Of a DNA stretch of 64,000 bases, positions 45,625 through 58,374 are shown piece after piece. Position 1 is the stretch's first letter. Every line of letters begins with the position of its first letter. Origin of the DNA: Pseudomonadota bacterium (lineage in GTDB: Bacteria; Pseudomonadota; Alphaproteobacteria; Acetobacterales; Acetobacteraceae); contig JAKBAD010000001.1 in NCBI GenBank assembly GCA_021809435.1, positions 620,001 through 684,000 of the forward strand, read 5' to 3'. The position numbers were made by a program, and so were the translations under genes. Below the pieces are notes generated by a model. It was not told the origin of the DNA. It saw only the letters and a list, made by a program, of their open reading frames with translations, and did no database searches.

Positions 45625-45699
45625 GGGCGCGTAGCTCAGCGGTAGAGCATTCGCTTCACACGCGAAGGGTCACAGGTTCAATCCCTGTCGCGCCCACCA
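45625..45699 (+). tRNA. tRNA-Val(CAC), copy 1, CCA encoded
   Basis: 75 nt cloverleaf; acceptor GGGCGCG/CGCGCCC; anticodon loop TTCACAC. Confidence 0.96.
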
Positions 45700-45738
45700 T
45701 TCTCTCCGGTGTTTGCTCCCTCGGGAGCCACGAAAACC

Positions 45739-45813
45739 GGGCGCGTAGCTCAGCGGTAGAGCATTCGCTTCACACGCGAAGGGTCACAGGTTCAATCCCT
45801 GTCGCGCCCACCA
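45739..45813 (+). tRNA. tRNA-Val(CAC), copy 2, identical to copy 1
   Basis: Identical 75-nt sequence 39 nt downstream. Confidence 0.96.
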
Positions 45814-53486: not shown

Positions 53487-53564
53487 TGGTCGGAGTGAGA
53501 GGATTCGAACCTCCGGCCCCTGCGTTCCGAACACAGTACTCTAACCAGGCTGAGCTACACTCCG
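53487..53564 (-). tRNA. tRNA-Pro(CGG), CCA encoded
   Basis: Reverse complement CGGAGTGTAGCTCAGCCTGGTTAGAGTACTGTGTTCGGAACGCAGGGGCCGGAGGTTCGAATCCTCTCACTCCGACCA; anticodon loop TTCGGAA; C1-G72 typical of bacterial tRNA-Pro. Confidence 0.94.
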
Positions 53565-53729
53565 ATGGGGGCAGCCTATAGCGAAGCGGATGAGTGAGCG
53601 CAAGCCGCGCGGCGTATTTTCGTGCCGCCCCCCGCCCCAAGCCCGGCGCTGTGATGAATTTGCCGCATCAATCCATGAAAAATCAATAAGTCCTGGCCAC
53701 GATCGGAAGTTGCGTGTTAGAATTCGCCC

Positions 53730-54545
53730 ATGTGCGTGAATTGTGACTGGACAAGGCGTTCCTTCCTGCGACTCGCGCTTGGCGCGACGGGGGCGGCGGC
53801 GCTCGCGCCCCGGCCGGCTTTTGCCACGGCGGCCGAAATTCCCCCGGCGCAGCGGCCGCTGGTGATGCTCGACCCCGGCCATGGCGGGCACGACCCTGGG
53901 GCCATCGCCCCCGATGGGATATTCGAGAAACATATCACCCTGGCGACCGGTTTTGTGCTGCGCCGGGCGCTGCTGGCCACCAGGCGGTATCGCGTGGCCA
54001 TGACCCGCACGCGCGACGTGTTCGTGCCGTTGCAGGACCGGGTGAATGATGCCGTGAACCAGAACGCCAACCTGTTCATCTCGCTGCATTGCGACCATCT
54101 GCCGATCGATAATCTGCGCGGGGCGAGCGTGTTCACCCTCTCCAACACCGCCTCCGACGCGCTGTCCGCCGATCTCGCGCATGACGAAAACAGCGCCGAC
54201 ACCACCGCCCCCGCCATTACCGGCGTCTCGCCGAAAGTGGCCGATATTCTGGCCAGCCTGGAAGCGCGCGCCACCAACCTCAATTCCGCCAGCCTCGCCC
54301 AGGACATCGCGCGCTCGTTTCGCGGCGTGGTGCCCCTGCTGCCCGACCCCGAGCGCTCAGCCAATTTCGCCGTGCTGCGCGATGCCTCAACCCCCTCCAC
54401 CCTGGTCGAGATGGGCTGCCTCACCAACAAGCTCGACGAAAAGCGCCTGCGCGACCCCAAACAGCGCGCGCTGATCGCCGGGCTGCTGGTTCAGGCCATC
54501 GATGCCTATTTCGCCCATTATGCCCAACAGCGCATGGCGGGTTAG
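53730..54545 (+). CDS. N-acetylmuramoyl-L-alanine amidase (Amidase_3), Tat signal
   Basis: RRSFLRLALGATGAAAL Tat motif; LDPGHGGHDPGAIAPDGIFEKHITL, NANLFISLHCDHL. Confidence 0.93.
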   Translation: MCVNCDWTRRSFLRLALGATGAAALAPRPAFATAAEIPPAQRPLVMLDPGHGGHDPGAIAPDGIFEKHITLATGFVLRRALLATRRYRVAMTRTRDVFVPLQDRVNDAVNQNANLFISLHCDHLPIDNLRGASVFTLSNTASDALSADLAHDENSADTTAPAITGVSPKVADILASLEARATNLNSASLAQDIARSFRGVVPLLPDPERSANFAVLRDASTPSTLVEMGCLTNKLDEKRLRDPKQRALIAGLLVQAIDAYFAHYAQQRMAG

Positions 54546-54640: not shown

Positions 54641-57214
54641 ATGTCTGACCCGCAAGACCCGTTTTCGGCAGGCGAACGCCTGGCCCCGCCCCGCCGCCAG
54701 CCCGAGCAAAAGCCCGAGCGGCCGCAACGCCCCGAACGCAAACGGCACCAAAGCCTCGGCGCCCGGCTGCTGGGCGGGCTGGTATTTGGCATTTACCGGT
54801 TCATTTTCGCGGGCGCGGTACTGGCCATTGCCGCCGGGGTCGGGGTGTTTTTTTACTTCTCGGCCAACCTGCCCAGCGTCGACAGCCTGAAGGACTATAA
54901 GCCGCCACTGGAAAGCCGGGTTTATGCCTCGGATTTCCAGGAACTGGGCTCGATTGGCAGCGAGCACTCGATTTATGTGACCTATGACCAGATTCCGCCG
55001 ATCGTCGCGCAGGCCTTCATCTCGGCCGAGGATCGGCTGTTCTGGTCCGAGCCCGGCATCAACCCCGCCGCCATCGTGCGCGCGGCGCTCACCGACATCA
55101 CCCTCATCGGCACGGGCCGGCGGCCCATCGGCGCATCCACCATCACCCAGCAGGTGGTGAAAAACATGCTGCTCGATAACCACATCACTTTCGCCACCAA
55201 AATCAAGGAGGCGCTGCTGGCCATGCGGGTCAGTCAGGTGATGACCAAGCAGCAAGTGCTCACGCTTTATTTGAACGAGGTCGATCTCGGCCATAATTCG
55301 CTCGGCATCGCGGCGGCCGCGCAAACCTATTTCGACAAGCCGCTCTCCCAACTCGACATCGCCCAAGCCGCGACGCTGGCCGCCCTGCCCAAGGCGCCAA
55401 CCAATTACGACCCCTTCCTGCATCCCGCCGACTCGCTGGCGCGGCGTAATTTCGTCATCAGCCGCATGTTGGCCGATGGCGCCATCACCCAGGCCCAGGC
55501 CGATGCCGCAACCCAGGAGCCGCTGCTGCCGCGGGCGGGCATTCTCGACCAAGGCATCCCCGATGGCGGCTATTTCGCCGACGCGGTGAAGGCACAGCTG
55601 ATTTCCCAGTTCGGCGCCGATACGGTCAATCAGGGCGGGCTGATCGTGCACACCACCATCGATCCCGCGCTGCAAAAGGCGGCGACCGATGCCGTGCGCG
55701 ACGGGCTGGAACAATATGACCATCGGCATGCGGGCTGGCACGGCCTCGTCACCACCATCGACACGCCCAACCTCGCCACCAGTTGGCAAAAGCCGCTGGC
55801 CAAGCTGGCCACACCGCCCGGCATGCGCGAGGCGTGGCGGCTTGGTGTGGTGCTGAACGCCGGCGCGCAAAGCGCGCTGATCGGCTCGATCGACCCGGCC
55901 TCGGGCGCCGCCCAAACCGGCAGCCTGCCACTGGCCAACATGCGCTGGGCGCGGCTGCGCGGCCATGGCGCGCCCAGCGCCGTTTCGCAGGTGCTGCACA
56001 CGGGCGATGTCATCATGGTCTCGGGTCAGGGCAATGATCTCTCGCTCGAACAAATCCCCATCGTGCAGGCGGCCTTGTTCTCCATCGACCCCAATACCGG
56101 CCGGGTGCTGGCCATGGTCGGCGGCTGGAGCCACGGCGTCAGCCCGTTCAACCGCGTGACACAGGCCCAGCGCCAGCCCGGCTCCTCGGTCAAGCCGCTG
56201 GTCTACCTCACCGCCATGGAACAAGGCGTGCAGCCCGATGCCGTGGTCCTCGACGCCCCCTTCGTGGAGCAACTGTCCGACGGCACCGTTTACCGCCCCG
56301 GCAATTACGAGCAGACCTTCCAGGGCCCGGTGCCGCTGTTCCACGCGCTTGAGCAATCGCTCAATCTCGCCACCCTGCATCTCGCGCGCCAGATCGGCTT
56401 GCCCAACATCGCCACCACGTTCCAGAATTTTGGCATCGTGAACCCGATGCCGCCTTATTATCCCTCGGCCATCGGCGCCATCGACACCACGCTGTGGAAA
56501 ATGGTCACCGCCTATGCCGCGCTCGATAATTATGGCCGCGAAGTGCAGCCGACGATGATCGACAGCGTGACCAACCCCGATGGCACCGTGCTCTATCAGG
56601 CGCCGGGCGAGAGCTGCCCCGGCTGCACCAACGGCACCCCCACCCAGCCGCCCCAGCTATCTCAGCCCGGCACCCAGGTGGCCGACCCCGATTCGGCGTT
56701 CCAGATCATCACCATGATGAAGGGCGTGGTGCTGCGCGGCACCGGCGTGCCGGCGGTGGTGGGCATTTCCCAACCCGTGGCGGGCAAGACCGGCACCACC
56801 AATAATTTCAACGACGCCTGGTTCATCGGCTTCACGCCGGGAATCGTGACCGGCTGCTGGATCGGCTATGATCAGCCCCAGGGGCTGGGCAACGATGAAA
56901 CCGGTGGCAGCGTGTGCGGGCCGATCTGGAATGAGTATATGAAGGCGGCGCTCAAGGACCAGCCCGACCTCGATTTCGCCGCGCCCCCCGGCATGAGCCT
57001 TGAGCAAGTGCCCGAGCCCGATGGCGAGATGGTGACGGAAGCCTTCAAACCCGGCCAGACGCCCGGCGCCCAGGACCAGAACTCGCTGCTCGGCGGTAAT
57101 GATACCGGGCTTGGCGCCTCCACCGGCGCGCCCGGCACCACCCCGGCCCCAGGCCAGCCAGGCGCCGCCAGCCCGCCCGCGAATGGCGGCTCCTCGCTCG
57201 GCGGGCTGTACTAA
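54641..57214 (+). CDS. mrcA: Penicillin-binding protein 1A
   Basis: GT51 motifs AEDRLFW, GASTITQQVVKNM; transpeptidase RQPGSSVKPLVYLTA, KTGTTNNFNDAWFIGF. Confidence 0.95.
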   Translation: MSDPQDPFSAGERLAPPRRQPEQKPERPQRPERKRHQSLGARLLGGLVFGIYRFIFAGAVLAIAAGVGVFFYFSANLPSVDSLKDYKPPLESRVYASDFQELGSIGSEHSIYVTYDQIPPIVAQAFISAEDRLFWSEPGINPAAIVRAALTDITLIGTGRRPIGASTITQQVVKNMLLDNHITFATKIKEALLAMRVSQVMTKQQVLTLYLNEVDLGHNSLGIAAAAQTYFDKPLSQLDIAQAATLAALPKAPTNYDPFLHPADSLARRNFVISRMLADGAITQAQADAATQEPLLPRAGILDQGIPDGGYFADAVKAQLISQFGADTVNQGGLIVHTTIDPALQKAATDAVRDGLEQYDHRHAGWHGLVTTIDTPNLATSWQKPLAKLATPPGMREAWRLGVVLNAGAQSALIGSIDPASGAAQTGSLPLANMRWARLRGHGAPSAVSQVLHTGDVIMVSGQGNDLSLEQIPIVQAALFSIDPNTGRVLAMVGGWSHGVSPFNRVTQAQRQPGSSVKPLVYLTAMEQGVQPDAVVLDAPFVEQLSDGTVYRPGNYEQTFQGPVPLFHALEQSLNLATLHLARQIGLPNIATTFQNFGIVNPMPPYYPSAIGAIDTTLWKMVTAYAALDNYGREVQPTMIDSVTNPDGTVLYQAPGESCPGCTNGTPTQPPQLSQPGTQVADPDSAFQIITMMKGVVLRGTGVPAVVGISQPVAGKTGTTNNFNDAWFIGFTPGIVTGCWIGYDQPQGLGNDETGGSVCGPIWNEYMKAALKDQPDLDFAAPPGMSLEQVPEPDGEMVTEAFKPGQTPGAQDQNSLLGGNDTGLGASTGAPGTTPAPGQPGAASPPANGGSSLGGLY

Positions 57215-57242: not shown

Positions 57243-58374
57243 ATGTCTGCTGAATCCGACCAACTGAATGAGCAAATCGGCCGCTCGGTCGCCTTGCTGA
57301 GGAGGCATCTTTGACTGGGATGCCGCTGTCATCAAGCTCGCTGAGCTGAACCACCGCGCCGAGGATCCCAACCTCTGGAACGACGCCGAGGCCGCGCAAA
57401 CCGTGATGCGCGAGCGCAACCGCATCGCCTCGATGGTCGAAGGCGTGCAGGCGATCGAGACCGAGACCAAGGATACGCTCGAACTCATCGAGATGGCCGA
57501 GGCCGAGGCCGACGAGGCCATGGTGCAAGACGGCATCAAGGCCCTGGAGCGCCTGGCCGAGACCGCCAAACAAAAAGAGATCGAGTCGCTGCTCTCGGGC
57601 GAAGCCGACGGGCGCGACGCGTTTGTGGAAATCAACGCCGGGTCGGGCGGTACCGAGGCCCAGGACTGGGCGCAGATGCTCTACCGCATGTATATGCGCT
57701 GGGCCGAGCGCAAGGGCTTCAAGGTCGAGGTGCTCGATGAATCAGAGGGCGAGCAGGCGGGCATCAAATCGGTGACGCTCCAGATCACCGGCGCCAATGC
57801 TTATGGCTGGCTGAAGACCGAATCGGGCGTGCACCGGCTGGTGCGTATCTCGCCATTCGACTCCGCCGCCCGCCGCCATACCAGCTTTTCCTCCGTATGG
57901 GTCTATCCGGTGGTCGACGATACGATCGAAATCGAGATCAACCCGGCGGATTTGAAGGTGGATACGTTCCGCGCCTCGGGCGCGGGCGGCCAGCACGTGA
58001 ACAAAACCGAATCGGCCATCCGCATCACCCACGTGCCCACGGGCATCATCGTCGCCTGCCAGACCGACCGCTCCCAGCACCGCAACCGCGCCACGGCCAT
58101 GAACATGCTCAAGGCGCGCATGTATGAGATGGAGCTGCAAAAGCGCGAAGCAGCCTCGGCCGCGACGGAAGCCGCCAAAACCGACATTGGCTGGGGTCAC
58201 CAGATCCGCTCTTACGTTCTGGCGCCTTATCAGCTGGTGAAAGACCTGCGCACCGGCTGCGAAAGCGGCAACCCCGCCGCCGTGCTCGATGGCGCGCTCG
58301 ACCCGTTCCTGGCCGCCTCGCTCGCCGCGCGCGTGGGCGCCACGCGCTCGGAAGCCTCGGCGATGGCCGAGTAA
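57243..58374 (+). CDS. prfB: Peptide chain release factor 2, programmed +1 frameshift
   Basis: ATG at 57243 to in-frame TGA at 57312-57314 (MSAESDQLNEQIGRSVALLRRHL*), then +1 frame DWDAAVIKLAELNHRAEDPNLWNDAEAAQ...; SPF and GGQ motifs present. Confidence 0.96.
57300..57315 (+). other. RF2 programmed frameshift site
   Basis: AGGAGG-CAT-CTT-TGA-C: SD-like element 3 nt before the CTT TGAC slippery/stop. Confidence 0.95.

Follow-up and report, generated by a model that had tools for sequence, protein, structure and literature searches.

The tRNA-Pro(CGG) gene and its genome

A tRNA-Pro(CGG) gene of 78 nt, including an encoded CCA, is located at positions 53487–53564 on the minus strand of the window, the whole 64-kb stretch of DNA that was analyzed. 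ARAGORN and Rfam (RF00005, 61 bits) agreed on the gene, and the tRNA fold, CGG anticodon, C1-G72, A73, and 3′ CCA are all present. The anticodon arm is CUGUG-UUCGGAA-CGCAG, and its loop (positions 32–38; 53525–53531, minus strand) reads U32, U33, C34, G35, G36, A37, and A38, with the anticodon (34–36) at 53527–53529, A37 at 53526, and A38 at 53525, all on the minus strand. Bacterial tRNA-Pro nearly always carries G37, which TrmD methylates to m1G37, and this keeps the ribosome in frame. The tRNA described here has A37 beside G36, where the m1G37 class has G37, in agreement with the earlier note on this DNA. In a folding energy model, the A37 and G37 anticodon arms are alike. The gene is functional by all sequence criteria at hand.

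The identical 78-mer was found in 30 of the 36 congeners searched; two others differ by one T-loop base, and the four congeners with no match are assemblies that are only 73–85% complete. The isolates Acidocella facilis, A. aromatica, A. aminolytica, and A. aquatica carry the identical sequence. Because the 78-mer is unchanged while the proteins flanking it mostly share 41–86% identity between congeners, the tRNA is under strong constraint. Comparison among the congeners also yielded a conserved promoter motif, CTTGCG-N16-GCTATAG (53576–53604, minus strand), 11 nt upstream of the mature tRNA. The motif occurs once in the window, and the form CTTGCN-N16/17-GCTATAG/C was present 9–11 nt upstream of the mature tRNA in all 31 Acidocella-type loci inspected; a scan with the sigma-70 consensus gave no promoter on the tRNA strand. 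The divergent neighbor is an N-acetylmuramoyl-L-alanine amidase gene (53730–54545, plus strand), followed by the gene for PBP1A (54641–57214) and then prfB, and this arrangement serves as a genus-level synteny marker. The classical programmed +1 frameshift signal of RF2 is seen in prfB (57303–57315, plus strand), with the purine-rich AGGAGG just 5′ of CTTTGAC; the CTTTGA is at 57309.

The source assembly (G000; 2.65 Mb, 12 contigs, rated 100% complete), in which the window is C4:620001–684000, is that of an Acidocella species (Acetobacteraceae), since Acidocella type strains have identical tRNAs and the flanks of the congener locus L224 match those of the A. facilis locus L134. All 45 tRNAs of the genome were located. 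The CGG gene is present once, and the other tRNA-Pro genes, which the earlier note had proposed to check, encode tRNA-Pro(UGG) and tRNA-Pro(GGG) that both keep G37. The genome encodes TrmD, which is still required for the other tRNAs with G36-G37 (tRNA-Pro(UGG), tRNA-Pro(GGG), tRNA-Leu, and tRNA-His), and RlmN (TIGR00048, 382.8 bits). No CmoB scored above its cut-off in this genome, so that the wobble base of tRNA-Pro(UGG) probably lacks cmo5U and the strength of this isoacceptor as a back-up for reading CCG is uncertain. CCG accounts for approximately 43% of the proline codons in the heuristically chosen predicted genes of the window, and tRNA-Pro(CGG) is therefore a used tRNA.

In regards to the other tRNAs, the tRNA-Arg(CCG) of the source genome (L019:306–382) has A37 in the loop CUCCGAA, as do the tRNA-Arg(CCG) genes of all Acetobacteraceae among the matches listed. 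The E. coli tRNA-Arg(CCG) is a classical m1G37 tRNA. Judged from these sequences, TrmD lacks tRNA-Arg(CCG) as a client throughout the family, and a tRNA with C34, G36, and A37 is thus normal in Acetobacteraceae; the difference is that A37 is family-wide in tRNA-Arg(CCG), whereas in tRNA-Pro it is confined to a few lineages. The tRNA-His(GUG) of the source genome (L026) has G37 (UUGUGGU), in contrast to the m2A37 of E. coli tRNA-His, and is a possible TrmD client. A tandem pair of tRNA-Val(CAC) genes is found at 45625–45813 (plus strand) of the window.

Occurrence of A37 and its association with the D arm

We drew 150 genomes of Acetobacteraceae, 139 of which contained a CCA-encoded tRNA-Pro(CGG). 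The base at position 37 was G in 132 and A in 7 of these 139, and the seven A37 genomes are spread over five genera. At the class level, we scanned 385 alphaproteobacterial genomes for A37 in tRNA-Pro of every isoacceptor, using a register-fixed pattern. Four genomes matched, three in the CGG isoacceptor (G000, G299, and G549) and one in the GGG isoacceptor (G541); no tRNA-Pro(UGG) with A37 was found among the 385. In a class subset of 230 genomes, tRNA-Pro(CGG) had G37 in 143 of 145 cases and A37 in two. These results confirm that G37 is near-universal in tRNA-Pro and A37 rare, as the earlier note had stated, and the predominance of G37 in both the family sample and the class subset indicates that A37 is derived.

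In a collection-wide scan, at least 64 loci encoded a full A37 tRNA-Pro(CGG). Among the matches listed, the alphaproteobacterial loci belong to Acidocella, Robiginitomaculum, and several other lines, and those from elsewhere belong to Krumholzibacteria, a Hydrogenedentota, Fimbriimonadaceae, an Armatimonadetes metagenome-assembled genome, and Patescibacteria. The natural reading of these sequences is that A37 arose repeatedly in tRNA-Pro. Searches of open-access papers found no description of a natural A37 tRNA-Pro. The Acidocella tRNA-Pro(CGG) is, by its sequence, a natural member of this isoacceptor outside the m1G37 class.

The ancestral form in Acetobacteraceae, GCCUGGUAGAGCACUGUGUUCGGGACGCAG, differs from the Acidocella form, GCCUGGUUAGAGUACUGUGUUCGGAACGCAG, by G37 to A37 and by two changes in the D arm. 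The D loop is longer by one U (GGUUAG versus GGUAG in the G37 relatives; U20/U20a at 53543–53544, minus strand), and C25 is replaced by U25 (53538, minus strand), so that positions 10 and 25 of the D stem pair as G10-U25. In the distant alphaproteobacterial line Robiginitomaculum, the U insertion, G10-U25, and A37 are all present on a different tRNA body. A longer D region was found in 15 of the 36 distinct A37 sequences among the matches listed versus 2 of 143 G37 genomes (Fisher p = 2e-10, kinship ignored), and G10-U25 in 13 of these 36 versus none of 31 distinct G37 tRNAs, kinship again being ignored. The lone A37 tRNA-Pro(GGG), in the 8-Mb alphaproteobacterial genome G541 (L275, C1 about 5714847–5714923), also has a longer D loop, and the A37 pattern matches this genome a second time approximately 57 kb away. 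There are counter-examples: the genome G164 has A37 alone, without the D-arm changes, and the D-loop insertion is absent from Fimbriimonadaceae and some Hyphomicrobiales.

The association between A37 and the D arm, which the earlier note had not noticed, is the strongest new element of the finding. The +1 frameshift suppressors isolated in Salmonella include D-stem and D-loop mutations of tRNA-Pro(GGG), G10A being one of them (PMC3617221). This makes an effect of the D arm on frame keeping plausible. An effect on charging is plausible as well because m1G37 aids charging by E. coli ProRS 3- to 10-fold (PMC8384417). We tentatively suggest that A37 combined with a D-arm adjustment (the 20a insertion, G10-U25, or both) may be a repeatedly evolved means of TrmD-independent CCG reading, in which the adjustment makes up for the missing m1G37 in frame maintenance or charging. 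If so, the D arm and position 37 would form one co-evolving module of reading-frame control.

Proposed reading of CCG without m1G37

TrmD requires G37, and methylation of the A37 tRNA-Pro(CGG) by this enzyme is therefore excluded, as the earlier note had argued. m1G37 blocks a pair between G37 and a fourth C. A37 would be unable to form this fourth pair, which is what makes unmodified G37 slippery, and C34 would not be cognate for the slippery codon CCC; on these two grounds, the tRNA would need no m1G37 and would read CCG through three G-C pairs.

Ribosome structures of E. coli tRNA-Pro(CGG) on its cognate CCG indicate that the loss of m1G37 is not destabilizing, whereas the tRNA without m1G37 is in trouble on the near-cognate CCC-U (PMC7577736). 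Of the Salmonella genes, proM (UGG) is reported to be essential and proK (CGG) dispensable (PMC3617221). By analogy, CGG appears to be the proline isoacceptor that is least in need of m1G37 on its own codon. The restriction of A37 to CGG and GGG in the class sample is in line with these dispensabilities, and the isoacceptors that bear A37 would be those for which slippage is the smallest risk or the back-up is strongest, since CCG is read stably without m1G37 and proK is non-essential. For the same reasons, only part of a further proposal of the earlier note, that frame maintenance at CCG may rely on something else, was upheld: independence from m1G37 stands, but a special factor is not necessarily required.

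The Salmonella and E. coli proK tRNAs share the CGG anticodon, C1-G72, A73, U32 and A38, the encoded CCA, and the reading of CCG with the Acidocella tRNA, but the latter has A37 instead of their G37 (m1G37), an extra D-loop U, and G10-U25. In E. coli evolved without TrmD, A37 tRNA-Arg genes (argVYZQ/argW) were recoded to CCG (PMC8643618). These tRNAs likewise combine C34, G36, and A37 and are free of dependence on m1G37, and they can be regarded as a laboratory parallel of the escape, although they carry arginine and arose by anticodon mutation under TrmD loss, whereas the Acidocella case is natural, concerns proline, and retains TrmD.

The sequence comparisons show that this Acidocella species has the gene as its sole C34 tRNA-Pro, functional and with A37 in place of an ancestral G37. 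We consider it probable that the tRNA reads CCG independently of TrmD, without m1G37. The replacement would have been permitted by the back-up from tRNA-Pro(UGG), and the D-arm changes are probably compensatory, acting on decoding or on charging by ProRS. A tRNA of this kind beside G37 siblings in one cell is a natural experiment on the shares of m1G37 in frame keeping and in charging, and on whether some of its role can pass to the D arm. It also illustrates how a single base change releases individual tRNAs from TrmD and its otherwise essential modification.

The same back-up could mean instead that selection was relaxed, A37 being tolerated as a nearly neutral change with no adaptive role because CGG is redundant with UGG. 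This explanation draws on the dispensability of proK (PMC3617221) and on the restriction of A37 to backed-up isoacceptors in the class sample, but the conservation of the 78-mer and of its promoter in Acidocella indicates that the tRNA remains under selection, CCG is a heavily used codon, and the association with the D arm points to compensation. We therefore regard it as unlikely, though worth keeping in view.

It is similarly doubtful that the tRNA passed from TrmD to RlmN and carries m2A37, as do the E. coli tRNAs with G36-A37, such as tRNA-Gln and tRNA-Arg(ACG). The source genome has an RlmN gene, the tRNA has the A37 that the RlmN class requires and the favorable G29, and the E. coli m2A37 list for G36-A37 tRNAs includes tRNA-Gln, tRNA-His, and tRNA-Arg(ACG) (PMC10838301). 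Furthermore, the derived D arm (GGUUAGAGUAC) is similar to its counterpart in E. coli tRNA-Arg(ACG) (GGATAGAGTAC), and RlmN contacts the D arm (PMC5130265). However, the Acidocella tRNA has A38, where all E. coli substrates of RlmN other than tRNA-Arg(ACG) have a pyrimidine (PMC5130265). The change of U38 to A in tRNA-Gln abolishes methylation by RlmN, and tRNA-Arg(ACG), the only RlmN substrate with A38, is a poorer one (PMC5130265). In addition, rlmN was not found in 7 of the 26 genomes behind the A37 loci among the matches listed, mostly Patescibacteria whose assemblies may be incomplete; because several A37-CGG genomes show no rlmN, m2A37 is not a general requirement. m2A37 is thus a possible but not favored candidate in the Acidocella tRNA, and A37 would most likely be unmodified.

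Probable origin of A37 in place

The preferred reading, in which G37 was replaced by A37 within an existing gene, can be compared with related loci. In two genera of the family (g35 and g51), both A37 and G37 species are present. In g35, the A37 genome G164 and the G37 genome G070 have conserved genes to either side of the tRNA, which indicates that the change occurred in place at least in this genus; in g51, the upstream gene is common to the A37 and G37 loci. Horizontal replacement of the gene, for example by an integrative element that brought a tRNA 3′ half, appears very unlikely. Some 3′ halves of A37 tRNA-Pro(CGG) without a 5′ half do occur (L097:258–302, L102, L108, and L170) and are likely attachment remnants, but such elements would not bring in the 5′ half, where the D-arm changes sit, the A37 and G37 genes of g35 have the same neighbors on both sides, and the surroundings of the Acidocella tRNA are conserved with no integrase among the neighbors. 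An assembly error, or a pseudogene in the form of a copy that is not expressed and lies next to a normal CGG gene, each of which the earlier note had named as grounds for withdrawing its claim, can practically be dismissed, since nothing was found in support and the same base is present in isolates and many assemblies, the CGG gene is single in the genome, and its promoter motif is conserved.

In Acidocella RAIPG19, a half copy (L097) precedes the usual MFS neighbor and the whole tRNA is on a different contig (L122), an arrangement that looks like the result of an element inserting itself into the gene.
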